A DNA stretch of 64,000 bases from the NCBI RefSeq assembly GCF_029873215.1, contig NZ_CP123620.1, positions 4,214,109 through 4,278,108 on the forward strand, in the 5' to 3' direction. The DNA comes from Nocardioides sp. BP30. GTDB taxonomy: Bacteria; Actinomycetota; Actinomycetes; Propionibacteriales; Nocardioidaceae. Below, in pieces: positions 10,252 through 28,661 of this stretch. A model generated the notes under the pieces. That model searched no databases, was not told where the DNA came from, and worked only from the letters and a program-made list of their open reading frames with translations. Numbering within the stretch: the first letter of the stretch is position 1; every line of letters begins with the position of its first letter. The position numbers and the translations under genes were made by a program.

Positions 10252-11157
10252 TCAGGCGGTGACGGACGCCGCAAGCGTGCCGAGGACCTCGACGTCGATG
10301 CGCACCTCGTCGCCGGGCTCGAGCGGCGGCGGCGCATCCTCGCCGTACCGGCCCCACAGCTCCGCCAGGCAGCCGCCGCCACCGGTGGTGCCGGAGGCGA
10401 GCAGGTCGCCGGCGCGGACCAGGGAGTCCCGGGAGGCGTAGGCGATCATCTGCGCGAAGGTCCAGTGCATGCTGGAGAGCCGGTCCCGGCCCACCTGCGA
10501 GCCGTTGACCGACACCCGGCAGTCGAGGTCCAGGAAGCCGCGGGGGTCGACGTACGGCGCCAGCTCGTCCGCCGTCACGATCCAGGGCCCGATCGAGGTG
10601 GCGAAGTCCTTGCCCTTCGCCGGGCCCAGACCGACCTGCATCTCCCGGCTCTGCAGGTCGCGCGCGGACCAGTCGTTGACGATCGTGTACCCGAAGATCG
10701 CCTCGGCCGCCTCCGACTCCGCCAGGTCGCTGCCGTCGCGGCCGACCACCACCCCGACCTCGAGCTCGAAGTCGAGCCTGCGGCACGTCGCCGGCCGCCG
10801 GATGGGCTCGTCCGGGCCGAAGAGCGCGTGCGGGTTGGTGAAGTAGAACGTTGGCGCGTCGTACCAGGCCTCGGGGACGCCGACAGCGCCGTCGACACTG
10901 CGGCGTACGCCCTCGACGTGGGCTTCGAAGGTGACGAAGTCGCGCACGCTGGCCGGCCGGTAGGGCAGCTCCAGGCGCACCCCGTCGAGCGGCACACCAC
11001 CCTCGGCGAGGGCCGCCCGACCAGCCTCCAGCGCCGCCGGAAGGCCGCCCGAGACCAGGTCCTCGAGCGTGCGGCCGCGGATCTCGTGCACCGTTCCCGC
11101 TGCGGCCACGACGGCGGCGAAGCGCCGGCCGTCCTGGCTGACGGTCGCGAGCCTCAT
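10252..11157 (-). CDS. Fumarylacetoacetate hydrolase family protein (downstream copy)
   Basis: A 301-residue FAH-superfamily enzyme. The family hydrolyses or decarboxylates C-C bonds in 2,4-dioxo acids made after aromatic ring cleavage. The N-terminal cap (MRLATVSQDGRRFAAV) is followed by the FAH core. The core includes FELEVGVVVGRDG, with the metal-binding Glu pair, and the motif IVNDWSARDLQSREMQVGLGPAKGKD (written here in two overlapping known blocks). It is the last gene of the meta-cleavage operon and overlaps the SDR stop by four bases. A paralogue begins the same operon at 15467-16462. The two probably act at different steps, or one has become a decarboxylase or isomerase. The substrate is not known. 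Confidence 0.9.
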   Translation of the reverse strand: MRLATVSQDGRRFAAVVAAAGTVHEIRGRTLEDLVSGGLPAALEAGRAALAEGGVPLDGVRLELPYRPASVRDFVTFEAHVEGVRRSVDGAVGVPEAWYDAPTFYFTNPHALFGPDEPIRRPATCRRLDFELEVGVVVGRDGSDLAESEAAEAIFGYTIVNDWSARDLQSREMQVGLGPAKGKDFATSIGPWIVTADELAPYVDPRGFLDLDCRVSVNGSQVGRDRLSSMHWTFAQMIAYASRDSLVRAGDLLASGTTGGGGCLAELWGRYGEDAPPPLEPGDEVRIDVEVLGTLAASVTA

Positions 11158-11915
11158 GCCGGCCTGGTCGCGTCGGCGATGCGCTTGTGCGACACGTGCG
11201 CGGTCAGACCACCGTCGATCACGATCTCGGCGCCGTTGTAGTAGGAGGAGTCGTCCGAGCACAGGAAGACGATGGTCGGCGCGATGTCGGCCGGCACCCC
11301 GATCCGGCCCAGCGGCACCTCGCTCAGCGCCGCCTCCTTGAACGCCGGCGAGGCGTTCGCCATCAGCGGGGTGTCGATCAGGCCCGGCATCACCGCGTTG
11401 ACCCGGATGCCCTGCGACCCCAGCTCCAGCGATGCCGAGCGGGTCAGCCCGCGCAGCGCCCACTTGCTCGCCGTGTACGCCGCAGCCGCGTGCCCGCTGA
11501 TCGCGGCCACCGAGCAGATGTTCACGATGCTGGATCCCTGCGGCATCAGCGGCACCAGCGCCTGGATGCCGAGCATCGGTCCGGTGACGTTGATGTCGAA
11601 GGCGCGCTGCCACCCCTCCAGCGACACGTGCGGCAGCCGCTCGCGGGCCGCCACGCCGGCGTTGTTGACCAGCGCGTCGACGTGGCCGCGCTCGGCGCGA
11701 AGCCAGTCGGCCAGCTCGGCCCAGGCCGCGGCGTCGGTGACGTCGAGGTGACGCTCGACGACGCGGCCGCCGTCCCACGCCTCATCGCGCGGGTCGAAGG
11801 GCAGCACGTCGGTGGCCACGACGTACGCACCCTCGGCGGCCAGCGCGCGGACCTCCTCGGCGCCCTGGCCGCGGGCCGCACCGGTCACGACGACGATCTT
11901 GTCCTGCAGTCTCAC
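11154..11915 (-). CDS. Short-chain dehydrogenase/reductase with canonical catalytic residues
   Basis: A 253-residue classical SDR. The cofactor loop is TGAARGQG (residues 11-18), the structural motif is NNAG, and the catalytic set is Ser135, Tyr147 and Lys151 (YTASK). Asp36 after the second strand suggests NAD rather than NADP. It lies between the extradiol dioxygenase and the second FAH gene, with an 18-base gap upstream and a four-base overlap downstream. It probably oxidises or reduces a hydroxyl or keto group of the aromatic substrate or a cleavage product. The C-terminus (AHVSHKRIADATRPA) is longer than in minimal SDRs. Confidence 0.9.
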   Translation of the reverse strand: MRLQDKIVVVTGAARGQGAEEVRALAAEGAYVVATDVLPFDPRDEAWDGGRVVERHLDVTDAAAWAELADWLRAERGHVDALVNNAGVAARERLPHVSLEGWQRAFDINVTGPMLGIQALVPLMPQGSSIVNICSVAAISGHAAAAYTASKWALRGLTRSASLELGSQGIRVNAVMPGLIDTPLMANASPAFKEAALSEVPLGRIGVPADIAPTIVFLCSDDSSYYNGAEIVIDGGLTAHVSHKRIADATRPA

Positions 11916-11933
11916 CAGACCCCTCCCGGTGAC

Positions 11934-12884
11934 TCAGACCGGCGGGGCGACGAAGACGCCCCGGTCCGGGTCGTTGAAGGAGTCGCGTGCGATGAACTCG
12001 CTCATCGGATCGGCGATGCCCCACATGTCCTGGGTGTTCGGGTCGGCGATGTCGTAGACGTGCGGGTGCCACTGGTCGGTGGTCAGGCGCTCCAGCTCGG
12101 TGGTGTACTCCATGGTGTTGCCGCTGGGGTCCAGGAAGTAGGTGAATGTGTTGTTGCCCGCGTGGTGGCGACCCGGGCCCCAGATCTTCTTGATGCCCGC
12201 ACGCATGACGCGGCCGGTGCCGTAGAGGTACTCGTCCAGGCCGCGCATCTCGAAGGAGACGTGGTGGACGGCGGTGTGCGGGCCGCGCGCGATGGCCAGC
12301 GAGTGGTGCCAGTCGTTGCACCGCATGAAGTGCATCATCTCGCCCATGTGCTCGCCCCACAGGGTGTCGGAGAGCTTGAAGCCGAGCACGCTCGCGTAGA
12401 AGTCGCGCGTCCGGTTGGGGTCTTGGGAGTTCATCACCGCGTGCGAGAGTCGGACCGGGATGGCCTCCTTCTCCTCGATCTCGCGGAAGGCACGGGTCTC
12501 GACGTCGGAGCTGATCTCGATGGTGCGGCCGTCGATGTCGAAGAACCGGAAGCCGTAGCCACCACCGGCGGTCTGGAGCTTGTCGGGCTCGTTGACCAGC
12601 TGGATGCCCTGGCTGGCCAGCTTCTGGGCGAGCGCGTCGACCGTCTCGGGACTCTCGGAGCCGAAGGAGATCAGGTCGAGCCGCTTCTCGGCGTCCTTGC
12701 GCAGCCGCACGATGTACTGCTCCGGGGAGCCCTCGGCGGCGAGGTAGGACAGATCGCCGTCGGTGCCGACCTCGGTCAGGCCCCAGGTGTCCTTGTAGAA
12801 GGTCCGCTGCCTCTCGAAGTCCGGGACCGCCAGGTCGACGTGCCGCAGGTGGGTGATGCCGTGCTCGTTCAGGTGAGTGTTCAT
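11934..12884 (-). CDS. Type I extradiol ring-cleavage dioxygenase (catechol 2,3-dioxygenase-like)
   Basis: A 316-residue vicinal-oxygen-chelate dioxygenase that would open a catecholic ring next to one hydroxyl group using Fe(II) or Mn(II). It has two beta-alpha-beta-beta-beta modules. The N-terminal module (about 10-130) is structural. The C-terminal module carries the 2-His-1-Glu site, read as His148 (RLSHAVM), His208 (VHHVSFEM) and Glu259 (NTMEYTTELE). The second-shell residues His193/194 and Tyr249 match the catalytic acid/base and Tyr of BphC-type enzymes. The length fits the type I two-domain class. It is the ring-opening step that defines this operon. Its exact diphenol is unknown. An AAGGA site precedes the ATG. 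Confidence 0.9.
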   Translation of the reverse strand: MNTHLNEHGITHLRHVDLAVPDFERQRTFYKDTWGLTEVGTDGDLSYLAAEGSPEQYIVRLRKDAEKRLDLISFGSESPETVDALAQKLASQGIQLVNEPDKLQTAGGGYGFRFFDIDGRTIEISSDVETRAFREIEEKEAIPVRLSHAVMNSQDPNRTRDFYASVLGFKLSDTLWGEHMGEMMHFMRCNDWHHSLAIARGPHTAVHHVSFEMRGLDEYLYGTGRVMRAGIKKIWGPGRHHAGNNTFTYFLDPSGNTMEYTTELERLTTDQWHPHVYDIADPNTQDMWGIADPMSEFIARDSFNDPDRGVFVAPPV

Positions 12885-12913
12885 CGTCTTGCTTCCTTGT
12901 CTAGGTCGATGGT

Positions 12914-13681
12914 TCAGCCGAGGACGGAGCCGCCGCCGTCGACGACGAGGTTGACGCCGGTGATCCAGGACGCCTCGTCCGAGGCGAGGAACACCGCCGC
13001 GCTGACGACGTCCTCGGGCCGGCCCACCCGGCCCAACGGGATGCGGTCCCAGGTCGCCTTCATCGCCGGCGGCGGGTCGTCCACCAGGAACCTGGTCGCC
13101 GGCGTCTGCACGAAGCCCGGCGAGATGCACACCGCCCGGATCCGGTGCGGGCCGCCCTCCACGGCGAGCTGCTGGGTCAGGTTGATCACGCCCGCCTTGG
13201 CGGCGCCGTGCGCGTTCTGCGGCATGAACTCCACCCCGCGGGTGCCGGCGATCGAGCCGATGTTGACCACCACGCCACCACTCGCCTTCAGGTGCTTCCA
13301 GGCCGCGCGCACCGCGTAGAACACGATGTTGAGCTCCATGTCGATGGCGAAGTCCCAGTCCTCGACCGAGATCTCGTCGATCGCGCCGAAGCGCTGGATG
13401 GAGGCGTTGTTGTAGAGGATGTCGATCCCGCCGTAGACCTGCGCGCCCGCGTCGATCCACTGCTCCACCGCAACCGCGTCGCCGCAGTCGACCGGAGCGT
13501 CGCCGGTGATCTCCCCACCCTCGGCGCGGACCAGGGCGACGGTCCCCTCGAGGCCCTCCGCGTCGAGGTCGCAGCCGACCACCTTCGCACCCTCCGCGGC
13601 GAAGCGACGGGCCGCCTCACGGCCCATCCCGCCGCCGATCCCGGTGATGAGGGCGACCTTGCCCTCCAGACGTCCGCTCAT
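12914..13681 (-). CDS. SDR-family protein with His in place of the catalytic Tyr
   Basis: A 255-residue protein with the SDR fold: cofactor loop TGIGGGMG (13-20), acidic residue Asp38 after strand 2, NNAS and the catalytic Ser143. The YxxxK motif reads AHGAAKAG, so the catalytic tyrosine is replaced by His158 while Lys162 is kept. The codon is CAC on the minus strand, so this is not a reading error at the protein level. The enzyme may use His as acid/base, work as a lyase or isomerase, or no longer do redox chemistry. It is translationally coupled to the VOC gene upstream by a four-base overlap. Confidence 0.87.
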   Translation of the reverse strand: MSGRLEGKVALITGIGGGMGREAARRFAAEGAKVVGCDLDAEGLEGTVALVRAEGGEITGDAPVDCGDAVAVEQWIDAGAQVYGGIDILYNNASIQRFGAIDEISVEDWDFAIDMELNIVFYAVRAAWKHLKASGGVVVNIGSIAGTRGVEFMPQNAHGAAKAGVINLTQQLAVEGGPHRIRAVCISPGFVQTPATRFLVDDPPPAMKATWDRIPLGRVGRPEDVVSAAVFLASDEASWITGVNLVVDGGGSVLG

Positions 13682-14097
13682 GCGTGTGCTCCCGCGCTCG
13701 TGCGGTCGAGCAGCTCGACCAGGTTCCCCTCGGGGTCGGCCACGTAGGCCATCCGGACACCCGGCTCCGGCGAGGGGCGCGGCGACATCCGGTCGCTCGC
13801 GCCCGAGGCGAGCAGCGCCTCGTAGGCGCTGTCGACGTCCGGTACGTCGAGGGCCACGTGGCCGAAGCCGTGGGTCAGCGCCGCCTCGACCGGGCTGGCG
13901 GCGCGGAGGCCGGGGCCGCCCTCCGGCCGGTGCAGCAGCTCCAGCCGCCAACCGTTCTGCGAGCGCAGCATCGCGCCGGTGAGGTCGACGTGGTCGAGGG
14001 TGAACTCGAACTCCACGGTGAGGTCGAGGGCCTCGGCGTACCAGGTCTGCATCGCCGGCAGATCCGCGACGGTCAGGCCGACGTGATCGAGTCTCAT
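13678..14097 (-). CDS. Single-module VOC (glyoxalase/bleomycin-resistance fold) protein
   Basis: A 139-residue vicinal-oxygen-chelate protein with two beta-alpha-beta-beta-beta halves: MRLDHVGLTVADLPAMQTWY at the start and GHVALDVPDVDSAYEALLASG in the second half. Candidate metal ligands are His5 and a Glu in LVELLDR. It resembles methylmalonyl-CoA epimerase- or glyoxalase-type members more than ring-cleaving dioxygenases, which are twice as long. It overlaps both neighbours by four bases, so it belongs to the same pathway. It could act as an isomerase, a hydratase or a small dioxygenase on a pathway intermediate. Confidence 0.8.
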   Translation of the reverse strand: MRLDHVGLTVADLPAMQTWYAEALDLTVEFEFTLDHVDLTGAMLRSQNGWRLELLHRPEGGPGLRAASPVEAALTHGFGHVALDVPDVDSAYEALLASGASDRMSPRPSPEPGVRMAYVADPEGNLVELLDRTSAGAHA

Positions 14098-15470
14098 GCC
14101 ACCACCACGGTGCGCACGTTGGTGAACTCCCTGATGCCCTCGGCCGAGAGCTCGCGGCCGTAGCCGCTGCGCCCGATGCCGCCGATCGGCAACCGCGGGT
14201 CGGAGGCCACGATCGCGTTGACGAACAGGCCGCCGGAACGGATCCGGCCGCCGACCGCCAGCGCGTGCTCGGTCTCGCCCCACACCGCGCAGCCGAGGCC
14301 GAACGCGGTGTCGTTCGCGAGCTCGACGGCGTGGTCGTCGTCGCGGGCGCGCACGATCGCCGCGACCGGCCCGAAGGTCTCCTCGGTGAAGGCGGTCATG
14401 CCCGGGACGACGTGGTCGAGCACTGTCGGCTCGAGGAACACGCCGGGGCCCTCGATCGCCTCGCCGCCGGTGACGAGCGTGGCGCCCTGCTCGACCGTCG
14501 CACGGACCTGGCGCAGGAGAGCCTCCCGCAGGTCCGGCCGCGCCATCGGGCCGAGCGTGGTCGAGGGAAGCGTGGGGTCGCCGACCTCCAGGGCGGCGAC
14601 CCGTGCCAGGAAGGCGGTGAGGAACGCGTCGGCGATCGACTCGTGCACGATGAACCGCTTGGCAGCCACACAGCTCTCGCCGACGTTGCCGAAGCGGGAC
14701 CTGGCCGCCGCGGTGGCGGCAGCCTCGACATCGGCGTCGGCCAGCACGACGAACGGGTCGGACCCGCCTAGCTCGAGCACGGCCTTCTTGATCTGCGCGG
14801 CGGCGGCGGAGGCCAGCGCGGAGCCGGCCCGTTCGCTGCCGGTCAGGGTGACCGCGGCGACGCGTGGGTCCGCCACGATCCGCTGGGACACGGCCGGGAC
14901 GTCCTCAGCGGCCACCACCAGCGAGCGCAGCAGACCGGTCGGCGCCCCTGCGTCGGCGAAGAGCGCCTCGAGCGCGAGCGCCGCACCGGTCACGTCGGGG
15001 CTGTGCTTGAGCAGCAACGCGTCACCGGCGGCGATCGCGCCGGCCCCGGCCCGGATGACCTGCCAGAACGGGTAGTTCCACGGCATCACCGCGAAGACCA
15101 CCCCGAGCGGCTCATAGGTGAGCCAGGACCGCGAAGCTCCGGAGACGATCTCGCGCTCGGCCAGCCACTGCGGCGCGTGCTGCGCGACGACCTCGCAGTT
15201 CCAGGCGCACTTGTCGATCTCCCCCAGCGCCTCGGTGATCGGCTTGCCCATCTCGGCGGTGATCAGCGCGCCGTACTCCTCGCGGCGCTCGGTGAGCAGC
15301 TTGCCGACGCCGCGCAGCAGGGTCAGCCGCTCCGCGAGCGGCGTGGCGCGCCACAGCTGCGCGGCGGCGTACGTCTCGGCGATGGCCTGCTCGATGCCGG
15401 CCTCGTCGTGCGCGGCGTACGTCGCGAGCACCGCGCCGGTCGCCGGGTTCGTGGTGACGACCTGGCTCAT
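14094..15470 (-). CDS. NAD(P)-dependent aldehyde dehydrogenase, succinate-semialdehyde dehydrogenase type
   Basis: A 458-residue aldehyde dehydrogenase of the GabD-like group. Visible hallmarks are VMPWNYPFWQ (oxyanion Asn), VTLTGSERAG (cofactor loop), VLELGGSDPF with general base Glu233, and GNVGESCVAAKRF with nucleophile Cys267. It would oxidise a semialdehyde released after ring cleavage to the acid. It overlaps the first FAH gene and the VOC gene by four bases each, so stoichiometric co-expression is likely. The substrate could be a muconate semialdehyde or succinate semialdehyde; the sequence does not decide between them. Confidence 0.92.
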   Translation of the reverse strand: MSQVVTTNPATGAVLATYAAHDEAGIEQAIAETYAAAQLWRATPLAERLTLLRGVGKLLTERREEYGALITAEMGKPITEALGEIDKCAWNCEVVAQHAPQWLAEREIVSGASRSWLTYEPLGVVFAVMPWNYPFWQVIRAGAGAIAAGDALLLKHSPDVTGAALALEALFADAGAPTGLLRSLVVAAEDVPAVSQRIVADPRVAAVTLTGSERAGSALASAAAAQIKKAVLELGGSDPFVVLADADVEAAATAAARSRFGNVGESCVAAKRFIVHESIADAFLTAFLARVAALEVGDPTLPSTTLGPMARPDLREALLRQVRATVEQGATLVTGGEAIEGPGVFLEPTVLDHVVPGMTAFTEETFGPVAAIVRARDDDHAVELANDTAFGLGCAVWGETEHALAVGGRIRSGGLFVNAIVASDPRLPIGGIGRSGYGRELSAEGIREFTNVRTVVVA

Positions 15471-16462
15471 GCCGACTCCTCCAGCCGTGCCCGGTCCGTA
15501 CGCCGGCGGGCCGGCGTCACCGCGGCGACGCTCGCGGTCCGGGGCGCGACCGGGTTGCGGATCGTGCCCAGGCGCTCGATCGACATCTCCACCACGTCAC
15601 CCACCTGCAGCGGCGGCGGGGTCAGCGACCCGTTGCGGCCCCACGACTCGGCCAGCGAACCGGACGCGCAGGTGCCCGAGGCGAGCACCTCCCCGGCCTT
15701 GACCCACGAGGCTCGCGACGCGTGCGAGACCAGCTGCTCGAACGACCAGCCCATGTGGCCCGAGCGATCAGCTCCGACCTGCTGGTCGTTGACCTTCACC
15801 GTCATCTCCAGGTCGAGGAACCCGTCCGCGTCGCGGCACTCCTCCAGCTCGTCGGCGGTGACCACCCACGGGCCGATGGTGGTGGCGAAGTCCTTGCCCT
15901 TTGACGGCCCGAGCTTGAGCTTCATCTCGGTGCCCTGGACGTCGCGGGCCGACCAGTCGTTCATGATGCAGTAGCCGCCGATGGCCTCGCGGGCCTGCTC
16001 CGGGGTGACGTCACGCACGTCGCGGCAGATCACCGCGGCGATCTCGAGCTCGAAGTCGAACCGCTCGGTGTCGGGCGGCATCGGGACCTCGTCGTGAGCG
16101 CCGACGACCGCGTGCGGCGCCATGAACAAGAAGACCGGCGCCTGGTACCACTCGGCCGGCGGCCCGGGATTGCCGTGACCGCGCTCCATGCCGTCCACGT
16201 GCGCCTCGAAGGTGAGGAAGTCGCGCATCGCCACCGGGTAGACGGGCGGCAGCAGCACCACGTCCTCGCGGTGCAGCCCGTCACCCTGGGCGGCCGCGTC
16301 GGCGGCCTGCTCGCGCTCGGCGGCAGGGGCCGCCAGCAGCTCCACCAGGTCGGTGCCCTCGGGGAAGGGGTGCAGCCACCACGTGGAGCGGTCGCCGACC
16401 ACGAGCCCGACGCGGCGGGTGCCGGCCGGCTCGTCGGTACGGCGGAAAGCTGCCAGACGCAT
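15467..16462 (-). CDS. Fumarylacetoacetate hydrolase family protein (upstream copy)
   Basis: A 331-residue FAH-superfamily enzyme, about 30 residues longer than its paralogue at 10252-11157 because of a C-terminal tail rich in Arg and Ala. The core has FELEIAAVICRDV with metal-binding acidic residues, the block IMNDWSARDVQGTEMKLKLG followed by PSKGKDFATTIGPW, and GTCASGSLAESWGRNG near the active-site cover. It follows the small monooxygenase by six bases and overlaps the aldehyde dehydrogenase by four. It would hydrolyse or decarboxylate the dioxo acid formed by the extradiol enzyme. Having both copies in one operon suggests two successive steps. Confidence 0.9.
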   Translation of the reverse strand: MRLAAFRRTDEPAGTRRVGLVVGDRSTWWLHPFPEGTDLVELLAAPAAEREQAADAAAQGDGLHREDVVLLPPVYPVAMRDFLTFEAHVDGMERGHGNPGPPAEWYQAPVFLFMAPHAVVGAHDEVPMPPDTERFDFELEIAAVICRDVRDVTPEQAREAIGGYCIMNDWSARDVQGTEMKLKLGPSKGKDFATTIGPWVVTADELEECRDADGFLDLEMTVKVNDQQVGADRSGHMGWSFEQLVSHASRASWVKAGEVLASGTCASGSLAESWGRNGSLTPPPLQVGDVVEMSIERLGTIRNPVAPRTASVAAVTPARRRTDRARLEESA

Positions 16463-16468
16463 GTCAGC

Positions 16469-16759
16469 TCAGCCGATCGTCTCGTAGAAGGCGCGCTCAC
16501 GGTCGGCCAGGACCGGGATGGCCTGGCCGAGGCCGTACTCGGCGAAGTGCTCCGAGGCGCCGTGGGCGGCGTACGCCTCCTCGTCCTGGTAGATCTCGAA
16601 GAGCCGGAAGACGCTCGGCTCGGCCGGGTCCTGGTAGGCCTGGTAGAAGAGGTTGCCCGGCTCCTGGCGCGAGGGCGGGGTGAGCTTCTCGATCGCGTCG
16701 CGGACGACGTCCTCCTTGCCGGGCTGGACGGTCCAGGTGGCGCTGACGACGTAGGCCAT
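16469..16759 (-). CDS. Antibiotic-biosynthesis-monooxygenase (ABM) domain protein, putative quinol monooxygenase
   Basis: A 96-residue ferredoxin-like alpha-beta protein of the ABM/YgiN group, which works as a dimer without cofactor, often on quinols. The fold signature is YVVSATWTVQPGKED at the start, RQEPGNLFYQAYQDPAEPS in the middle, then FEIYQDEEAYAAHGAS and the helix before the C-terminus. It is the first gene of the meta-cleavage operon, with a strong AGGAG site seven bases before the ATG. Possible roles are hydroxylation of a quinol or phenol before ring cleavage, or protection from quinones. A palindrome 117 bases upstream is a likely operator. Confidence 0.85.
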   Translation of the reverse strand: MAYVVSATWTVQPGKEDVVRDAIEKLTPPSRQEPGNLFYQAYQDPAEPSVFRLFEIYQDEEAYAAHGASEHFAEYGLGQAIPVLADRERAFYETIG

Positions 16760-16875
16760 GGGGTTCTCCTCGAAGATGGGGGGTGAAGGGGAAGGGACGC
16801 CGACGGCGGCCCGGGAAAGGTGGGGGATACGTCCACGCTAGGCGTGGGAGAGGCCCGGCGGAACGCGCCTCAAGC

Positions 16876-16888
16876 GATGGCTGGCATC
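16876..16888. promoter_or_regulatory. Candidate operator of the meta-cleavage operon, GATGGCTGGCATC
   Basis: This 13-base site differs by one base from the perfect palindrome at 20995-21007, and the match extends into the flanks (GCGATG then CTGGCATCAGCGCG). It lies in the 138-base gap between the importer operon and the ABM gene, about 117 bases before that start codon. Its position and identity suggest the same regulator controls both. This is pattern evidence only. Confidence 0.55.
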
Positions 16889-16897
16889 AGCGCGAGG

Positions 16898-20955: not shown

Positions 20956-20972
20956 CGAATGCCTGGCATTCG
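20956..20972. promoter_or_regulatory. Perfect palindrome CGAATGCCTGGCATTCG in the divergent promoter region
   Basis: A 17-base inverted repeat with 8-base arms around a single T, between the importer operon (start 20840, minus) and the flavin monooxygenase (start 21076, plus). It shares the core ATGCCTGGCAT with the site 37 bases away. Its symmetry and placement fit an operator for a dimeric regulator. It does not fit the T-N11-A pattern of LysR boxes. Confidence 0.65.
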
Positions 20973-20994
20973 TCCCGACCGGGGCGTCGGGGGC

Positions 20995-21007
20995 GATGCC
21001 TGGCATC
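20995..21007. promoter_or_regulatory. Palindrome GATGCCTGGCATC in the divergent promoter region
   Basis: A 13-base inverted repeat with 6-base arms around a T, centred 37 bases from the palindrome at 20956-20972 and 69 bases before the flavin monooxygenase ATG. The near-copy at 16876-16888 includes the same downstream AGCGCG. It probably acts with the first site in co-operative binding. Confidence 0.62.
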
Positions 21008-21075: not shown

Positions 21076-22212
21076 ATGTCCGAGTCCCGCACCAGCCGGG
21101 TCCTGATCGTCGGCGGTGGCATCACCGGCGGCGTGCTCGCCCTCGCGCTGGCACAGCGCGGCGTCGAGGTCGTGCTCGTCGACCTGCGCGACACCCTGCG
21201 CGGTGTCGGTCACGGCATCACCCTGCAGGGCAACGCCCTGAAGGCGTTCCGCGCGGTCGGGATCTACGACCGCCTCGCCGAACGCGCCTACCCGTTCGAC
21301 AAGCTGCGGCTGCGCGGCGCCGACGGCACGCTGTTGGCCGAGATCGCCACGCCGCCGATGGGCGGACCCGGACTGCCCGGCACGATGGGCGCCGTGCGCG
21401 GTGACATCGCCGACATCCTCGCCGAGGAGGTGGTCGCCGCGGGCGTCGACGTACGGCTCGGGACGACGCTGACCCGTTTCGAGGACGCCGGCGACGCTGT
21501 CACCGTCACCCTCTCCGACGGAACCACCGAGACCGTCGACCTGCTCGTCGGGGCCGACGGCATCCGCTCGAAGGTGCGCGGGATGATGGGCATCGAGACC
21601 GAGCCCAGGCCGGTGGGGATGGGCATCTGGCGCACCGTCGCCAAGCGTCCCGCCCAGATGGACTGCTCGGAGATGTACTACGGCGGCCCGAAGTTCAAGG
21701 CCGGCTACACCCCGATCTCCGATGACCTCTGCTACGCCTTCCTGCTGGAGGAGAACCTCGACCGCTCCTACGTGGGCGAGGGCGCCCGCGGCAAGGAGCT
21801 CAAGGAACGCGGTCGCGGGTACGGCGGAACCTGGGGCGAGGTGCGCGACAGCCTCGCCGACGACGCCCTGGTCAACTACCAGTGGATCGAGGCGATCTGC
21901 GTCGACGAGCCGTGGTACCGCGGCCGGGTGATCATCGTCGGCGACGCCGCCCACGCCTGCCCGCCGCTGATCGCCCAGGGCGCCGCGATGTGTGCGGAGG
22001 ACGCTGTCGTCCTGGCGGAGATGCTCACCGACGGCGACAAGATCGACGACGTCCTGCCGGCGTTCTGGCAGCGCCGCTTCCCCCGCGTGAAGATGGTCCT
22101 GGACAACTCGCTCAAGCTCGCCGAGTGGGAGATCCACCCCGGCGTCGACCCGGACGAGAACCCGGGGCGGCTGATGGGTGAGACCCTCGGCGCGCTGGTG
22201 GCGCCGGCGTGA
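21076..22212 (+). CDS. FAD-dependent aromatic-ring monooxygenase (class A flavoprotein)
   Basis: A 378-residue flavin hydroxylase related to p-hydroxybenzoate/UbiH-type enzymes. It has the FAD Rossmann motif VLIVGGGITGG at the start, the DG motif LLVGADGIRSK, and the GD motif GRVIIVGDAAHACPP in the C-terminal half. It would hydroxylate a phenolic ring with NAD(P)H and oxygen. AAAGGAG lies six bases before the ATG. It diverges from the importer operon across the palindrome pair and overlaps the next gene by GTGA. It may prepare the diphenol that the extradiol dioxygenase cleaves. Confidence 0.9.
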   Translation: MSESRTSRVLIVGGGITGGVLALALAQRGVEVVLVDLRDTLRGVGHGITLQGNALKAFRAVGIYDRLAERAYPFDKLRLRGADGTLLAEIATPPMGGPGLPGTMGAVRGDIADILAEEVVAAGVDVRLGTTLTRFEDAGDAVTVTLSDGTTETVDLLVGADGIRSKVRGMMGIETEPRPVGMGIWRTVAKRPAQMDCSEMYYGGPKFKAGYTPISDDLCYAFLLEENLDRSYVGEGARGKELKERGRGYGGTWGEVRDSLADDALVNYQWIEAICVDEPWYRGRVIIVGDAAHACPPLIAQGAAMCAEDAVVLAEMLTDGDKIDDVLPAFWQRRFPRVKMVLDNSLKLAEWEIHPGVDPDENPGRLMGETLGALVAPA

Positions 22213-23609
22213 GCGCCGGTGCGAGTGCCGGTGCGAGTGCCGAGGGCCGAACGTTCGACGGGCAACTGATCCTGCGCGGTGAGCCGGGCTTCGAGGAGGC
22301 CCGCGTCGACCGGATCTTCAACCGCCGGCTCAGCGACCGCTCCCCCGCGGCAGTGCTGCGGGTGGCCAGTGAGCGCGACGTGGTCGAGGGCGTGCGGCTG
22401 GCCCGCGAGCGCGGCTGGAGGGTGGCGGTCCGCTCCGGCGGCCACAGCTGGGCGCAGTGGTCGGTGCGCGACGACGCGCTCGTGCTCGACCTCGGCGCGC
22501 TCAAGGAGATGGCGTACGACGAGGCGACCGGCATCGTCACCGCCTCACCAGCGGTCCAGGGCGGCAGCGAGCTCGGCCCCTACCTCGCCGAGCGCGGCCG
22601 GTTCTTCGTCGGCGGTCACTGCCCCACCGTCGGCATCGGCGGCTTCCTGCTCCAGGGCGGCCAGGGCTGGAACGCCCGTGGCTGGGGCTGGGCGGCGGAG
22701 TACGTCGAGGCCATCGACGTGGTCACCGCCGAGGGCGAGCTGGTCCGTGCCGACGCGACCCGGAACGCCGACCTCTACTGGGCCGCGCGCGGCGCCGGGC
22801 CGGGCTTCTTCGGCGTCGTCACCCGGTTCCACCTCCGCACCCGGCCACACCCCGGCTACCTCGCGCACACCGTCCAGGCCTTCGGTCTCGACGACTTCGA
22901 CGAGGTGATGACCTGGCTGCACGAGACGCATGCGAGCATCGCCGGCACCGTCGAGATCGTGGCGCTGACCATGACCGACCCGCACCTCTCCCCCGACCCG
23001 GTGCTCCTGGTCACCGGCGTGGCGATGGTCGACGACGAGCGGGAGGCGGACGCGGCGCTGGCGCCGTTCCGGGACAACCCGGCACTCGACCGGGCCCTGC
23101 TGGTGGTGGACGCGGAGCCGACGACGTTCGACGCCGAGCGGGCCCAACAGATCCTGGCCAACCCGGAGGGTCACCGCTGGGTCGTCGACAACGCCTGGCT
23201 CTCCGGGACCGCCGCCGAGGTGGTGCCTGCGATGCGCCGGGCCTACACCACGCTGCCGAACGAGAAGGCGTTCACCATCTGGTTCAGCATGGCGCCGCTA
23301 CGCGAGCTGCCGGACATGGCGTTCTCGGTCCAGTCCGAGATCTACCTGGCGTCCTACGTCCTGTGGGAGGACCCGGCCGAGGACGCCGCGCACCGCGCCT
23401 GGCTGGACCGCGCGATGGCCGACCTCGAGCCGGTCACGGTGGGTCAGTACCTCGGCGACAGCGACCTCGCCCACCGGCAGCTGCGGTTCCTCTCCGACGA
23501 GTCGTGGGAGCGGTTGGGCCGGATCCGCGCCGAGCGGGACCCCGACGGCCTGTTCGTGGGCTACCTCGCCGGCCCGGAGGGGGCAGCGAACGCGAACCAC
23601 TGGCAGTGA
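22209..23609 (+). CDS. BBE-like FAD-linked oxidase with predicted bicovalent flavin
   Basis: A 466-residue oxidoreductase of the berberine-bridge/6-hydroxynicotine oxidase family. The FAD-binding half has RSGGHSW with His79 and GGHCPTVGIGG with Cys138, the two positions that bind FAD through histidyl and cysteinyl links in bicovalent members. The C-terminal end PEGAANANHW matches the BBE C-terminal segment (usually NPxNxFRxxQ-like, here variant). There is no signal peptide, so it is cytoplasmic. Its GTG start overlaps the monooxygenase stop (GTGA). It would oxidise an alcohol, amine or C-H bond of the substrate with oxygen as acceptor. The substrate is unknown. Confidence 0.86.
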   Translation: MSAGASAGASAEGRTFDGQLILRGEPGFEEARVDRIFNRRLSDRSPAAVLRVASERDVVEGVRLARERGWRVAVRSGGHSWAQWSVRDDALVLDLGALKEMAYDEATGIVTASPAVQGGSELGPYLAERGRFFVGGHCPTVGIGGFLLQGGQGWNARGWGWAAEYVEAIDVVTAEGELVRADATRNADLYWAARGAGPGFFGVVTRFHLRTRPHPGYLAHTVQAFGLDDFDEVMTWLHETHASIAGTVEIVALTMTDPHLSPDPVLLVTGVAMVDDEREADAALAPFRDNPALDRALLVVDAEPTTFDAERAQQILANPEGHRWVVDNAWLSGTAAEVVPAMRRAYTTLPNEKAFTIWFSMAPLRELPDMAFSVQSEIYLASYVLWEDPAEDAAHRAWLDRAMADLEPVTVGQYLGDSDLAHRQLRFLSDESWERLGRIRAERDPDGLFVGYLAGPEGAANANHWQ

Positions 23610-23682
23610 CACCTCCCAGCCGTCGGCGAGCTGACCATCCGCTCAACACGACCCGGCTCCCCCTGGCGGGGCGAACGATCGT

Positions 23683-24603
23683 TCAGCCGGCGGGGGTGAG
23701 CTCCGCGCCGACCGCCTCCAGCCGGCCGAACAGCCATCGATAGGCGGGATCGGCGAGCCGGTGCTCGGCGAACCAGTAGCCCTCGGCGAGCAGCACCTCG
23801 CCGAACGGCGGCTCCACCATCACCAGCGGTCCGTCCGGGCGGGCGTGGAGACGGCCCAGCATCTCGGGCACCACGGCGAACATGTCGGTGCCCTCGATGA
23901 CGAAGGGCAACGGCAGGAAGCCGAAGACCTGCAGCACCGGCCGGTGCTCGATGTGCAGCTCGCCGAAGACCCTGTCGACAGGGGTGAGCACGCCGGCGCC
24001 GAAGGAACCGGCGGCGTACGGCAGGGCGCGCAGGTCGTCGATGCTCAGCGCGCCGTCGCGCAGCCGCGGATTGCGCCGGTCGACCAGCACCACCATCCGG
24101 TCGGTCCACAACGGTCGCGAGACGCCCTGGAAGCCGAAGCCCATCGGTGCGACCACGGCGTCGTGGTCCACCAGGAGCCGCTCGGACAGGTGCGACCCGG
24201 AGCCGAGGTTCCCGATCGTCAGGCGTACGCCGGGAGCGTCGGCCTCCACCAGCCGCACCAGCGGCTCGTGGATCGCGGCGATCGCGTAGTCACTCATCAC
24301 CAGTCGGAACGTGCGCCTGCTGGTGCTCGGATCGAAGGCGTCCTCCAGGTCGAGCGCCACCCCGACCAGCCGGACCGCCTGCTGCACCTCGGGCAGCAGG
24401 TCCCGAGCGAACGGCGTCAGCTCGTACTCGCGTCCCGCCCGGACCAGCAGCTCGTCGTCGAAGCGCCGCCGCAGCCGCGCCAGCGCCGCGCTCATCGCCG
24501 GCTGGCTGAGGCTGAGCCGGTGCCCGGCTCGGGTGACGTTGCCCTCCTCGAGCAGCACCTTCAGCGGGAGCAGCAGGTTGAGGTCGGTGCCACCCAGCGC
24601 CAT
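23683..24603 (-). CDS. LysR-family transcriptional regulator (divergent pair, left)
   Basis: A 306-residue LysR regulator. The helix-turn-helix spans about 10-65 (LKVLLEEGNVTRAGHRLSLS then QPAMSAALARLRRRFDDELL), followed by a periplasmic-type effector domain. The sequence DELLVRAGREYELTP places it in the NodD/LinR-like branch. It is divergent from a paralogue whose start is 55 bases away. It ends 73 bases from the BBE-like gene, tail to tail. It probably regulates part of the surrounding catabolic cluster, or its paralogue. Confidence 0.9.
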   Translation of the reverse strand: MALGGTDLNLLLPLKVLLEEGNVTRAGHRLSLSQPAMSAALARLRRRFDDELLVRAGREYELTPFARDLLPEVQQAVRLVGVALDLEDAFDPSTSRRTFRLVMSDYAIAAIHEPLVRLVEADAPGVRLTIGNLGSGSHLSERLLVDHDAVVAPMGFGFQGVSRPLWTDRMVVLVDRRNPRLRDGALSIDDLRALPYAAGSFGAGVLTPVDRVFGELHIEHRPVLQVFGFLPLPFVIEGTDMFAVVPEMLGRLHARPDGPLVMVEPPFGEVLLAEGYWFAEHRLADPAYRWLFGRLEAVGAELTPAG

Positions 24604-24658
24604 GTCGTGTCTTCTCTTCCCTCGGCGCCCGGGAGCGGGCGGTGACGACTAGAGTTCC

Positions 24659-25621
24659 ATGGCCATGGTCACACAGGAGCCCGGGACCCGGGAGCGGCTG
24701 CGCGAGGTCGACGCCAACCTCCTCTTCGCGTTGCACGCGCTGCTCGAGGAGCGCAACCTCACCCGTGCCGGTGAGCGCCTGATGATGAGCCAGCCCGCGA
24801 TGAGCGGCGCCCTGACCCGGCTGCGCAAGCACTTCGACGACGAGCTGCTGGTCCGCTCCGGCCGCGGGTTCGAGCTGACCCCGACCGCCGAGCGGTTGCG
24901 TCCCGCGGTCACCGACGCCGTCGAGGCGGCCGAGGCCCTGCTGGGGACCGAACGCGCCTTCTCCCCCGCCACGAGCGCCAAGCGCTTCGCGGTGAGCATG
25001 TCGGAGTATGCGATGACCGTGCTGGCCGAGCCGTTGGCGCGGATCCTGACCGAGCTGGCCCCGGCCTGCTCGATCACCCTCGACCCGCTGGACCTGGACC
25101 GTGAGCAGATCGACGCGCAGCTGATGCGCCGCGACCTCATCATCGCGCCGCTCGGCTTCGACTTCCCGGGGCGCTCCCAGCCGGTGTCCACCGACGAGCT
25201 GGTGTGCCTGGTCGATCGGCAGCATCCGCGGCTGCGCGACGGCGCGCTGAGCCTGCAGGACCTGCACGAGATGCAGCACGCCGTGGCCGAGTTCACCGCG
25301 GCCGGCCCGGTCAGGCGTCCGCTCGAGGTCGAGCTGGAGCGCCACGGCATCGCCGATCGCAACGTGCTGGTCCGGGTGCGCAGCCTCCTGACGCTGCCGT
25401 TCGCCGTCGCCGGCACGGACATGTGCTGCTTCGTGCCGTCCCGGCTGGCCAAGCGCTGCCTGGACATGTTGAACCTGACAGCCGCCCGCACCCCGCTCGG
25501 CCCGGTGCGGATCACCGAGGCGGCCCACTGGCATCCGCGCCGGGAGAACGATCCGTCGGTGGTCTGGCTGCGCCAGCTCCTGTACGACGTCGCCGTCACC
25601 GTGGAGGACCAGCACCCCTGA
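24659..25621 (+). CDS. LysR-family transcriptional regulator (divergent pair, right)
   Basis: A 320-residue LysR regulator paralogous to the protein at 23683-24603. The two share the block SQPAMS, then RLR, F and DELLVR in the DNA-binding domain, and LVDRQHPRLRDGALSLQDL-like text in the effector domain. Its start could be the ATG at 24659 or 24665; neither has a strong ribosome-binding site. The 55-base divergent gap must hold both promoters. The MBL-fold operon follows 115 bases downstream on the same strand. Confidence 0.89.
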   Translation: MAMVTQEPGTRERLREVDANLLFALHALLEERNLTRAGERLMMSQPAMSGALTRLRKHFDDELLVRSGRGFELTPTAERLRPAVTDAVEAAEALLGTERAFSPATSAKRFAVSMSEYAMTVLAEPLARILTELAPACSITLDPLDLDREQIDAQLMRRDLIIAPLGFDFPGRSQPVSTDELVCLVDRQHPRLRDGALSLQDLHEMQHAVAEFTAAGPVRRPLEVELERHGIADRNVLVRVRSLLTLPFAVAGTDMCCFVPSRLAKRCLDMLNLTAARTPLGPVRITEAAHWHPRRENDPSVVWLRQLLYDVAVTVEDQHP

Positions 25622-25641
25622 GCCGCCCCGCGGCTCCCGCC

Positions 25642-25654
25642 GATGCCAGTGATC
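25642..25654. promoter_or_regulatory. Weak match to the cluster palindrome, GATGCCAGTGATC
   Basis: This matches 10 of 13 positions of GATGCCTGGCATC and lies 83 bases before the GTG start of the MBL-fold gene. The arms GCCAG and CTGGC around it also form a looser inverted repeat. It may be a degenerate fourth site of the same regulator or chance in GC-rich DNA. Confidence 0.3.
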
Positions 25655-25736
25655 GGTCCTGGCGATGGTCCCGACCCTTGCAGCCGCGTCTCATCTCGGG
25701 CTGACTGTGACCGCAACCACAGCGAGGAGAGGCACA

Positions 25737-26672
25737 GTGAGCTGGGACGACGGAGCGCCGTACGTGCAGGAGCTGGCGAAGGGCGTCCACGCCTACGTCC
25801 AGCCCGCGGGCGGCTGGATGGTGAACAACTGCGGCATCATCACCGATGCCGCGCGCGATGCCGTCCTGGTGGACACCACCTCGACCGAGAAGCGCAACCG
25901 GGCGCTGCTGGCCGAGGTGGCGGGCCTCGGCGCCCGCGACCCGAAGGTGGCCGTCAACACCCACCACCACCCCGACCACACCTACGGCAACGGCTTCCTG
26001 CCCGCCACCACCACGATCGTCGGCCACCACCTGGCCCGCGAAGGCATCCTGCGCGCCGGCCTGGCCGCCACCAAGGAGCTGCCCGCCGACTACGGCCGAC
26101 TGGTCGTGCGCGCACCGGACGTCACGTTCTCCGAGCGCCTGACCCTGCACCTGGAGGACTTCGCCGTCGAGCTGATCACCCTGGGGCCTGCGCACTCCAC
26201 CAACGACGTGGCGGTCTGGCTGCCGGAGCAGAAGGTGCTCTTCGCCGGAGACCTGGCGTTCTCCGGCGGCCACCCGATCTTCATGGAGGGCTCGATGCTC
26301 GGCTTCAAGGCCGCGCTCGACGCGATGCGCGACCTCGGTCCCGAGGCGCTCGTCCCGGGACACGGTCCGGCCTGCCGCAGCGCCGAGGAGGTGCAGCGGG
26401 TGCTCGACGAGCTCGACGGGTACGTCGCCTACATCTCGGCGCTCGCCCTCGAGTCGTACGCCGCCGGCCTCACCCCGCTCGAGGCCGCGCAGAAGGCCGC
26501 TCAGGGCGAGGACCCCTACCGCGACTGGCCCGAGGGCGAGCGCGTGGTGTGCAACCTGCATCGCGCCTACGCGGAGCTGACCGACTACGAACCGCCGGTG
26601 CCGCTGACCATTCCGAGCCTCTGGCCGGAGATGGTGGCGCTGCACGGCGGCCCGATCGGAACCAACGCGTGA
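25737..26672 (+). CDS. Metallo-beta-lactamase-fold hydrolase
   Basis: A 311-residue MBL-fold protein. The metal motif HxHxDH reads HHHPDH (His76, His78, Asp80, His81), followed by ligands in LGPAHSTND, FAGDLAF and VPGHGPAC, so two metal ions are expected. There is no signal peptide. A GTG at 25737 was chosen because AGGAGAGG lies just upstream, which removes 24 residues from the longest reading. It starts an operon with a cupin and a CoA-transferase pair. It could hydrolyse a lactone or thioester intermediate. Confidence 0.88.
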   Translation: MSWDDGAPYVQELAKGVHAYVQPAGGWMVNNCGIITDAARDAVLVDTTSTEKRNRALLAEVAGLGARDPKVAVNTHHHPDHTYGNGFLPATTTIVGHHLAREGILRAGLAATKELPADYGRLVVRAPDVTFSERLTLHLEDFAVELITLGPAHSTNDVAVWLPEQKVLFAGDLAFSGGHPIFMEGSMLGFKAALDAMRDLGPEALVPGHGPACRSAEEVQRVLDELDGYVAYISALALESYAAGLTPLEAAQKAAQGEDPYRDWPEGERVVCNLHRAYAELTDYEPPVPLTIPSLWPEMVALHGGPIGTNA

Positions 26673-27214
26673 GCCCGCGGTTCCCCGCGCCGCGGCGCGT
26701 CGTCACCGGGCACACGCCCGACGGCGTCTCGGTCGTGGTCTCCGACGGGCCGGTGCCGGTCAGCCGGCACCTGCCCGAGGACGGCGTCCACTTCCACGAG
26801 ATATGGAACACCGAGGGCGCTCCGGCGCTGATCACCGCCGTCGAGGCGGACGAGCCGACGCAGCGCACCCTCGCCGTACCGCCGCCGGAGCGGGGGACGA
26901 AGATCCGGATCAACGAGTTCGCGCCCGGCTTCCTCGACGAGCGCGGCCTGCAGTCCCCGGTGCACCGCACCGCGTCGATCGACTACGGCATCGTGATCGA
27001 GGGTGAGATCACGCTGATCCTCGACGACTCCGAGGTGACGCTGGGCGCCGGTGACGTGGTGGTGCAGCGCGGTACCGACCACGCGTGGGCCAACCGCGGC
27101 GACGTCACGGCGAAGGTGGTCTTCGTGCTCGTCGACGGTGCCTTCGACGAGGCGCTCGCCGCTTCGCTGCCCGGCGGCCTGACCGGGCTCATGCACGGCG
27201 GCCCGAGAGACTAG
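26669..27214 (+). CDS. Cupin-domain protein
   Basis: A 181-residue protein with one C-terminal cupin. The block HRTASIDYGIVIEGEITLIL, then GAGDVVVQRGTDHAWAN, gives cupin motif 1 (with one His and an Asp-Tyr in place of the usual HxH) and motif 2 with a conserved His. The N-terminal 90 residues hold an extra strand-rich region. Its GTG start overlaps the MBL stop by GTGA. Similar proteins are found with aromatic degradation genes, but a ring-cleaving role would need a full metal site, which is not clear here. Confidence 0.8.
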   Translation: MSPRFPAPRRVVTGHTPDGVSVVVSDGPVPVSRHLPEDGVHFHEIWNTEGAPALITAVEADEPTQRTLAVPPPERGTKIRINEFAPGFLDERGLQSPVHRTASIDYGIVIEGEITLILDDSEVTLGAGDVVVQRGTDHAWANRGDVTAKVVFVLVDGAFDEALAASLPGGLTGLMHGGPRD

Positions 27215-27216
27215 TC

Positions 27217-27990
27217 GTGGACAAGGTGGTCTCCTCGGCGGCGCGGGCGGTGGCCGACGTCGGGTCCGGCTCGACGCTCGCCGTCGGCGGGTTCGGGCTG
27301 TGTGGCATCCCCGCCGTGCTGATCGAGGCGCTGCTGGCCTCGGGCGCCGACGAGCTGGAGGTGTTCTCGAACAACGCCGGCGTCGACGACGCGGGCCTGG
27401 GCCTGTTGCTGGGCGCCGGCCGGCTGCGGCGCGTGGTCGCGTCCTACGTCGGGGAGAACAAGGAGTTCGCCCGCCAGTACCTGGCCGGTGAGCTCGAGGT
27501 CGAGCTCACCCCCCAGGGCACCCTGGCCGAGCGGATGCGAGCCGGCGGGTCGGGCATCGCCGCGTTCTACACCCGCACCGGCGTCGGCACCCAGGTCGCC
27601 GAGGGCGGGATGCCGTGGAGGTACGACGGCCACGGCAACGTGGCGATCGCCTCCCCGGCCAAACAGGTGCAGTCCTTCGAGGGACCCGACGGGCCTCGGG
27701 AGTACGTGCTGGAGCGGGCGATCGTCGCCGACTTCGGCCTCGTGCGCGCCTGGAAGGGCGACCGGCACGGCAACCTGGTCTTCCGGGCCGCGGCACGCAA
27801 CTTCAACCCACTCGCCGCGATGTGCGGTCGGGTCACGATCGCCGAGGTCGAGCATCTGGTCGAGCCCGGCGAACTGGGTCCCGACGAGATCCACCTGCCC
27901 GGGGTCTATGTCCAGCGTGTCCTCCCGCTCACGCCCGAGCAGGCCGCGGACAAGCTGATCGAGAAGCGGACCGTGAGGAGCCGGGGATGA
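27217..27990 (+). CDS. Succinyl-CoA:3-ketoacid CoA-transferase subunit A (SCOT type)
   Basis: A 257-residue alpha subunit of a class I CoA-transferase. It has the glycine-rich block [12 protein letters not shown], and [25 protein letters not shown] is characteristic of the SCOT subgroup, as opposed to PcaI, which has SFPRQVDS at that point. With subunit B it moves CoA from succinyl-CoA to a 3-keto acid, perhaps the end product of the nearby ring-cleavage pathway. The GTG start is three bases after the cupin stop, with GAGAGA upstream. It is distinct from PcaIJ at 31947-33292. Confidence 0.88.
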
Positions 27991-28661
27991 GCTGGGACCG
28001 CGACCAGATGGCAGCCCGAGCCGCTGCGGAGCTAGCCGACGGAGACTACGTCAACCTCGGCATCGGGCTGCCCACCCTGGTGCCGAGCTTCGTGCCCGAC
28101 GACCTGGAGCTGGTCCTGCAGTCCGAGAACGGCATCCTCGGCACCGGTGCCTACCCCACCGAGGACGAGGTCGACCCCGACCTGATCAACGCCGGCAAGG
28201 AGACCGTCACGGTCCGTCGGGGAGCCAGCTTCTTCGACTCCGCGACCTCCTTCGGGATGATCCGCGGCGGCAAGATCGACGCCGCCATCCTCGGGGCCAT
28301 GCAGGTCTCCGCGACCGGCGACATCGCCAACTGGATGATCCCGGGCAAGATGGTCAAGGGCATGGGCGGCGCGATGGACCTGGTCCACGGCGCCCGGAAG
28401 GTCATCGTGCTGATGGAGCACACCGCCAAGGACGGCTCCCCCAAGATCGTCGAGGAATGCACGCTGCCCTACACCGGCAAGGGCGTGGTCCAGAGGATCA
28501 TCACCGATCTGTGCGTCCTCGACGTCACGCCCGAGGGGCTGACCCTCGTCGAGCTCGCCCCGGGCGTGACGCTGGACGAGGTACGTCGAGCCACCGAGCC
28601 ACCGATCGCGGAGAGGCCGACTGACGCCGGGGCGGCGGCGAGCGCGCGGGGCCGGGACTAG
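27987..28661 (+). CDS. Succinyl-CoA:3-ketoacid CoA-transferase subunit B
   Basis: A 224-residue beta subunit. The catalytic glutamate that carries the acyl and CoA intermediates is Glu47 in QSENGILG, and the oxyanion-type block VNLGIGLPT is upstream. The C-terminal 15 residues ([13 protein letters not shown]) extend past the family's usual end. The ATG overlaps the subunit A stop by four bases. Its TAG stop shares the palindromic CTAG with the stop of the oppositely oriented DUF389 gene. Confidence 0.9.

Follow-up and report, generated by a model that had tools for sequence, protein, structure and literature searches.

Gene content of the locus

The compact gene cluster described here, of about 20 genes, occupies positions 10252–28661 of the window, the whole 64,000 nt stretch analysed, which is the final 64 kb of one 4.28-Mb contig of the soil actinobacterium Nocardioides sp. 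BP30 and has a G+C content of ~70 % throughout. A sequence-only reading had proposed a meta-cleavage locus not yet characterised, having a ribose-type importer of its own as well as a shared operator, and this description is supported. All of the enzymes that it named are present, each above Pfam cut-offs. However, it overlooked a small VOC protein (VOC1), an MBL-fold protein, a cupin and two LysR genes, and two partner genes, for a C–C hydrolase and a short-chain dehydrogenase (SDR), sit just left of the window. Over-long open reading frame starts were shortened before coordinates were given.

Eight genes with overlaps or short gaps between them form a minus-strand operon running from 16759 to 10252. 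The first encodes an ABM-domain protein (16469–16759; 96 aa; PF03992). It is followed by FAHa, of the fumarylacetoacetate-hydrolase (FAH) family (15467–16462; 331 aa; PF01557), an aldehyde dehydrogenase, ALDH (14094–15470; PF00171), the single-domain VOC1 (13678–14097; 139 aa, assigned from its translation), SDRa (12914–13681; PF13561), a type I extradiol ring-cleavage dioxygenase, VOC2 (11934–12884; 316 aa; PF00903), SDRb (11154–11915; PF13561) and a second FAH-family C–C hydrolase, FAHb (10252–11157; 301 aa; PF01557), whose start was taken from the overlap with SDRb. Also on the minus strand are the importer genes (20840–16898), encoding a substrate-binding lipoprotein (19623–20840; PF13407; start supported by a ribosome-binding site), an ATPase with two ABC domains (17989–19620; PF00005 twice) and a permease (16898–17992; PF02653).

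On the plus strand, a group A flavin hydroxylase, FMO (21076–22212; PF01494, FAD_binding_3), and a BBE-type (VAO/PCMH) flavin oxidase with a bicovalent motif (22209–23609; PF01565, FAD_binding_4) together span 21076–23609. Beyond them lie LysR1 (23683–24603, minus strand) and LysR2 (24659–25621, plus strand), and then, all on the plus strand, an MBL-fold metallohydrolase (25737–26672, alternative start 25665; PF00753), a cupin (26669–27214; 181 aa; PF07883) and 3-oxoacid CoA-transferase subunits A (27217–27990; TIGR02429, 234.1 bits against a cut-off of 128.5) and B (27987–28661; TIGR02428, 326.7 bits against 243.55). Immediately beyond the CoA-transferase genes, the minus strand encodes a DUF389 protein (28658–29614).

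Conservation of the cluster and its operator

The best 80 loci listed in a scan with the VOC2 alignment were taken as a sample. Around VOC2, at thresholds of our own, FMO is found in 77/80, FAH in 79/80, LysR in 66/80, SDR in 57/80 and CoA-transferase A in 19/80. Thirteen of these 80 (L022–L034) are of the window type. Their hosts are Nocardioides, Tetrasphaera, Humibacillus, Paractinoplanes, Phycicoccus and one unclassified metagenome-assembled genome, related genomes that are not independent of one another. The nearest named locus among the matches listed is that of Nocardioides sp. Iso805N, with VOC2 95 % identical. A Streptomyces-type variant is widespread in L035–L101 (for example L044:4788–15102) and comprises LysR, FAH, a PF04199 cyclase, FMO, an Amidohydro_2 protein, VOC2, FAH, one or more SDRs and, in part, CoA-transferase.

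All eight genes of the octet ABM-FAHa-ALDH-VOC1-SDRa-VOC2-SDRb-FAHb are present in 9 of the 13 actinobacterial loci, and the other 4 have a reduced form. FAHa, ABM and SDRb (67–96 % identity) each occur in 13/13, and FAHb, ALDH and VOC1 each in 12/13. SDRa is at the same place in 9/13, the exceptions being L024, L027, L031 and L033; L031 is also without ALDH and VOC1, and L024 without FAHb. The arm on the other side was read further in six relatives (L121–L126). FMO-BBE-LysR1-LysR2-MBL-cupin is complete in four of them (L121, L122, L124 and L125, with the LysR pair of L124 ~10 kb away from BBE), L126 is short of the cupin only, and in L123 LysR2, an importer and MBL were found. MBL matches are present in all six.

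The first partner outside the window is an alpha/beta hydrolase gene 1.3 kb left of the window border (G000:C1:4211553–4212815), next to an SDR gene (4210776–4211549). Its nearest solved relative is 2jbw, 2,6-dihydroxypseudooxynicotine hydrolase, a C–C hydrolase, and it is of the same type as the ifc locus 59470 product discussed below. Homologues lie within the fetched stretch of 10/13 loci. At E 1e-60 this hydrolase is found in 10/96 relatives, all within the 13 having VOC2, and in the three VOC2 genomes without it VOC2 is only 40–55 % identical. At ≥60 % VOC2 identity, a cut picked after seeing the data, the hydrolase and VOC2 sets coincide at 10 and 10, and ABM is present in 8 of the same 10 genomes. 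The nesting probability is 2.5e-11 if the genomes were independent, which they are not.

Between the aromatic cluster and this outside partner, from window position 10069 down to 1 and over the left border, sit an alpha-amylase-family gene, two GH66 genes (one with CBM35/CBM6), a CUT1 importer and a ROK regulator, an operon likely to serve dextran or isomalto-oligosaccharide use. It was rejected as part of the pathway (1370–10069), being dextran-like and without matching neighbours in the 13 relatives.

A predicted operator, ATGCCTGGCAT, occurs exactly at 20959–20969 and 20996–21006, and a copy with one mismatch to ATGCCNGGCAT lies at 16877–16887. The exact copies flank the FMO/binding-protein promoter region and the imperfect copy precedes ABM. 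Three matches in the locus compare with 0.46 expected, a number reached in 2/100 shuffles. Exact ATGCCNGGCAT is found at 11 places genome-wide; three have a central T/A, and two of these are at the locus. With ≤1 mismatch the motif is common genome-wide (195 places, against 69 for the reversed control), so single imperfect sites are weak evidence. The weight therefore rests on conservation before ABM. In the 200 bp preceding that gene, the best ATGCCNGGCAT match has 0 mismatches in 5 of the 13 relatives, 1 in 6, 2 in L026 and 3 in L030. These sites fall at −139 to −89, and ≤1 mismatch is seen in 11/13 relatives, which are not independent in this count, against 133/5200 random 200-bp stretches. 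The operator suspected from the sequence is thus borne out by two exact copies, one near copy and this conservation. The ATGCCNGGCAT-binding protein may perhaps be a LysR.

Two further sites are not claimed. The third exact ATGCCTGGCAT (G000:C1:4033419–4033429; L140:5920), with a central T, is upstream of a minus-strand gene, and the only matches around it were weak ones to ABC-ATPases; it is not assigned to the regulon. Before the C–C hydrolase gene the operator is exact in L033 and has 1 mismatch in L030, but the remaining nine loci show 2–4 mismatches and the BP30 genome 2. The locus as a whole is one real, conserved and coregulated-looking unit.

Importer, enzymes and candidate substrates

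The importer has the PF13407 binding protein, tandem ABC ATPase and PF02653 permease of the CUT2 (ribose) type. The window-type importer accompanies 4/13 loci (L022, L023, L026 with L123, and L027), and a distinct importer, which has a single ATPase and a PF13407 binding protein of its own, accompanies 8/13 (L024, L025, L029–L034). A CUT2-type importer, from one of two lineages, is therefore present in 12/13 loci; the L028 stretch showed none. Genome G428, from an unrelated actinobacterium, has a window-type binding protein and ATPase whose neighbours are a LysR gene and a fragment similar to the Streptomyces-type cyclase. This repeated association supports an uptake role for the pathway. The lipobox cysteine of the binding protein, Cys43, is invariant in 57 homologues. 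Four further cysteines (C99, C106, C158 and C184) are likewise invariant in these 57, which is unusual for a sugar-binding protein, and many of the relatives come from Microbacterium. No solved relative of the binding protein was found at E 0.001, and it occurs in just 3 genomes of a 394-genome class search. A plasmid search gave 2 weak Streptomyces records and a viral search no match; both are uninformative.

Uptake of an aromatic glycoside, as had been proposed, is no more than suggested. A near-full-length GH1 gene lies near the cluster in 7/13 loci and GH3 in 2/13 (L023 and L034), short GH1 matches antisense to the C–C hydrolase gene having been left out of the count. However, a close GH1 or GH1 ortholog was not found in the BP30 genome, where the best pieces are ~36 % identical and lie elsewhere.

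Alignment of VOC2 to catechol 2,3-dioxygenase (1mpy), whose metal ligands we take to be His-His-Glu, places its metal positions at H148, H208 and E259. These are unchanged in 17/17 aligned homologues. VOC2 combines this site with a two-domain VOC fold, as in type I extradiol dioxygenases. Its closest solved relative, 3b59, is named only glyoxalase/dioxygenase, and the family is large (3642 relatives at E 0.001).

A known homoprotocatechuate or catechol meta pathway would fit the likeness of VOC2 to HpaD and catechol 2,3-dioxygenase, and that of the FAH and ALDH proteins to HpaG and HpaE. None of the curated models for such ring-cleavage routes, however, reaches its cut-off. VOC2 reaches 122 bits with the HpaD model (cut-off 321.4) and 120.5 bits with TIGR03211 for catechol 2,3-dioxygenase (320.2), the FAH proteins 72.6 and 75.4 bits with HpaG-C (276.4) and 93.3 and 79.2 bits with the homogentisate-type fumarylacetoacetase TIGR01266 (375.3), and the ALDH 249.5 bits with HpaE (638.35). 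A pyruvate aldolase was not seen among the locus genes scanned. Such a pathway is disfavoured to the point of being barely credible. The sequence-only reading had not recognised a known catechol, homoprotocatechuate or gentisate route, and we take the locus to be none of these; the catechol, homoprotocatechuate and fumarylacetoacetase results agree with that, and the gene-order comparison found no exact synteny with a characterised pathway.

The SDRs, ALDH, FAH hydrolase and sugar-type importer could also belong to a diketo-hydrolase route for L-rhamnose or L-fucose. The best solved relative of FAHa is indeed L-2,4-diketo-3-deoxyrhamnonate hydrolase (8gsr). The chance of this is very slim: the FAH proteins score 87.2 and 87.3 bits with the L-rhamnose diketo-hydrolase model NF053535 (cut-off 500), a sugar-acid dehydratase was not seen among the genes scanned, and VOC2 keeps company with FMO and FAH in nearly all of the 80 loci sampled. 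With these scores, the L-rhamnose diketo route was rejected along with the homoprotocatechuate, catechol and fumarylacetoacetase routes.

The BBE oxidase carries VRSGGHSW (H79) and GGHCPTVGIGG (C138, the sole Cys of the protein), motifs that presumably mark bicovalent FAD linkage. With both linkage residues in place, bicovalent attachment, as first proposed, is expected from the motifs. ABM proteins are common in polyketide clusters, and a VOC2 relative lies near a type I polyketide synthase (PKS) in Streptomyces angustmyceticus. The nearest solved relatives of the BBE oxidase are EncM and 9p1p, 9p1o and 9p1r, the last three being entries cited, according to the accessible part of it, by a paper on Clz9/Tcz9. 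These observations would suit breakdown of an aromatic polyketide or pigment of microbial rather than plant origin. That is unlikely: a scan of the locus genes showed no biosynthetic gene (PKS, non-ribosomal peptide synthetase), the FAH/CoA-transferase set is catabolic, as is the importer, and the cross-phylum partners match flavonoid-type clusters.

These partners begin with the hydroxylase, which is 30–40 % identical to genes of flavonoid-type clusters and 37 % to P0187, carrying the database label 'naringenin degradation protein FdeE'. In the tree FMO groups with FdeE-labelled proteins, away from MhpA-type hydroxylases; the actinobacterial FMOs adjoin the FdeE-labelled group and are not within it. 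A stretch of Massilia putida is fde-like in gene content (FMO-VOC-Rieske-hisD-SDR-FAH-epimerase-hydrolase-ABM), and its FMO is 61–62 % identical to P0187 and P0193, both labelled FdeE. The C–C hydrolase is 46–47 % identical to counterparts in 5/6 proteobacterial stretches (Massilia, Paraburkholderia hospita, Sphingomonas R1, Sphingobium TomTYG65 and Novosphingobium aromaticivorans). The cupin is 37–42 % identical to cupins of polyphenol-type clusters (41–42 % for Paraburkholderia and Sphingomonas R1).

Sphingomonad stretches have a VOC2-type dioxygenase (41–43 %) beside an FMO of the same group and, in R1 and TomTYG65, also beside the C–C hydrolase. The Massilia and Paraburkholderia dioxygenases are of another type, 63 % identical to each other, beside the same partners, and VOC2 matches this type at 33–35 % over about 140 aa. 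The dioxygenase tree, in which long branches call for caution, likewise groups VOC2 with the sphingomonad type and separates it from the other. That the same FMO and C–C hydrolase families stand beside either type implies the same step, and our reading is that one extradiol dioxygenase has taken the place of another while the type of pathway stayed the same. On the Sphingobium sp. TomTYG65 plasmid (L120) the VOC2-type cluster is beside beta-glucosidase, AP-endonuclease-like and oxidoreductase genes, a set that we take to resemble C-glycoside deglycosylation.

The preferred reading, in which confidence is evenly balanced, is that the locus would serve catabolism of a polyphenol with a resorcinol or phloroglucinol ring, most likely a compound of the flavonoid type, as an actinobacterial counterpart of fde/ifc with a substrate that we infer from its genes. 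It draws on the complete extradiol active site of VOC2, the grouping of FMO with FdeE-labelled proteins, the C–C hydrolase and cupin matches to proteobacterial flavonoid-type stretches, the restriction of the C–C hydrolase to VOC2 genomes, the conserved operator, the CUT2-type importers and the precedent of hcdABC, the 7-hydroxycoumarin genes of Pseudomonas mandelii 7HK4. The locus is not filed as a member of fde/ifc, because its dioxygenase is of a different type and flavonoid activity is itself deduced.

In the proposed scheme the importer would take in the compound or its glycoside. FMO, judged by its family, would add a hydroxyl to the electron-rich ring beside one already present, giving a vicinal diol, and VOC2 would open that ring by extradiol cleavage. 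FAHa and FAHb, with the outside alpha/beta C–C hydrolase, may then hydrolyse the polyketo acids stepwise, by analogy with HcdC and 2,6-dihydroxypseudooxynicotine hydrolase. The SDRs and ALDH would oxidise the freed side fragment and the CoA-transferase would activate a 3-oxo acid. The BBE-type oxidase probably adds a flavin-dependent scaffold oxidation that is lacking in the proteobacterial clusters examined, and the ATGCCNGGCAT operator would mark one regulon. A second ring could be processed by neighbouring genes. Window positions 31947–44799 hold a protocatechuate/beta-ketoadipate set (a second, 3-oxoadipate-type CoA-transferase pair, thiolase, FAD monooxygenase, PcaB-like protein, PcaG, PcaH and an IclR-type regulator), in which the PcaB-like protein, thiolase and regulator are under the pca-specific cut-offs. 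This set, its protocatechuate 3,4-dioxygenase genes included, could take a hydroxyphenyl fragment.

A smaller substrate would ask for much of the same chemistry. A one-ring compound derived from resorcinol or phloroglucinol (such as orcinol, phloroglucinol carboxylate or a hydroxycoumarin-derived acid) could pass through FMO, extradiol cleavage and an FAH step to an acylpyruvate and an acid, followed by the second FAH. The accessible part of PMC6222606 describes hcdABC as performing this route, leaving acetylpyruvate and succinate. The pair of FAH genes and the 3-oxoacid CoA-transferase agree with it, the Streptomyces variant has an Amidohydro_2 protein that is possibly a decarboxylase, and the Corynebacterium occultum region, with VOC2 at 62 % and an SDR 50 % identical to SDRa, contains acetoacetate-CoA ligase and thiolase. 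The C–C hydrolase, cupin and binding-protein importer, however, exceed the needs of a monocyclic phenol, and the first two are common to flavonoid-type clusters. This alternative is doubtful, though it deserves serious weight.

Several observations weigh against the flavonoid-type reading, beyond the want of a close GH1 in the BP30 genome. The fde/ifc label of the proteobacterial stretches derives from gene content and database labels, not from characterised sequences. VOC2 was dropped as an FdeC ortholog, being 33–34 % identical over 146 aa to Massilia VOCb (FdeC-type by context) and in a separate clade. The Polymorphobacter C–C hydrolase is just 27 % identical, the locus ABM gave no match to the Massilia ABM, and a Rieske FdeD-like protein was not seen among the locus genes scanned. 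CoA-transferase genes occur in 1/6 relatives read on that side, and BBE, MBL, ALDH and VOC1 are without a settled place in the scheme.

A bolder and more tentative proposal, which we hold to be somewhat doubtful, is that Actinobacteria have their own complete A-ring meta-cleavage pathway for flavonoids or their glycosides, with ring opening taken over by a dioxygenase clade not orthologous to FdeC/IfcB, a new oxidation by a bicovalent flavin oxidase, binding-protein ABC importers recruited at least twice for uptake of the polyphenol glycoside, and one palindromic operator over all of it. Bacterial flavonoid A-ring catabolism has been described mainly from proteobacterial gene sets (fde and ifc). 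If the locus is a conserved actinobacterial counterpart of these, polyphenol turnover extends to a major soil-bacterial group, the large VOC2 dioxygenase family gains a function, and ribose-type importers are tied to the uptake of polyphenols or glycosides. With this gene set and operator, the reading can be tested within one strain.

Comparison with described ring-cleavage systems

The sequence-only reading had not recognised the combination of genes. No exact match was found, but the combination has some precedent: it is similar to the flavonoid A-ring pathways fde and ifc and, in its core of FMO, type I extradiol dioxygenase and FAH, to hcdABC. The nearest described systems are the proteobacterial pathways fde and ifc. 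An actinobacterial A-ring flavonoid cluster was not found in the literature listings, with subscription papers (among them Marin 2013, 2016) outside reach, and IfcA homologs are reported from Proteobacteria only in the accessible part of PMC11069340.

The fde pathway of Herbaspirillum seropedicae SmR1 (FdeE hydroxylase, FdeC dioxygenase) has in common with the locus the broader FMO group and an extradiol VOC step, and the fde-like Massilia stretch shares FAH, SDR, C–C hydrolase and ABM-type genes. In contrast to fde, the locus is actinobacterial, has a dioxygenase of another clade, adds BBE, ALDH, MBL, VOC1, CoA-transferase and a CUT2 importer, and showed no Rieske FdeD among the genes scanned. 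With FdeE/FdeC the A-ring is putatively lost as oxaloacetate, according to the accessible part of PMC10755750.

The ifc pathway of Variovorax sp. V35, as far as the accessible part of PMC11069340 describes it, shares FMO, a glyoxalase-fold dioxygenase, a cupin and an alpha/beta hydrolase related to 2,6-dihydroxypseudooxynicotine hydrolase. There, IfcA hydroxylates daidzein at C8, IfcB opens the ring and the cupin IfcD acts on the pyranone. The locus cupin is 41 % identical to that of the Paraburkholderia hospita stretch, which was used in the comparison in place of IfcD itself. IfcB is 65.8 % identical to FdeC in the same source, whereas VOC2 is not of the presumed FdeC type. The source also reports that disruption of 59470, the alpha/beta hydrolase gene, left daidzein degradation unaffected, which weakens an essential role for that gene in ifc.

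The Arthrobacter nicotine pathway (2jbw) is alike in the hydrolase family and unlike in its nicotine route and remaining cluster genes. The hcdABC system has only three genes and is likened here by description, not sequence; it shares an FMO, a type I extradiol dioxygenase and an FAH protein acting on a trihydroxybenzene. In the accessible part of PMC6222606, HcdA–C convert 3-(2,4-dihydroxyphenyl)propionate to a trihydroxyphenyl acid, then a dihydroxy-oxo-dienedioate, and finally 2-hydroxy-4-oxopentenoate and succinate. This chemistry offers a plausible job for two serial FAH proteins and a 3-oxoacid CoA-transferase.

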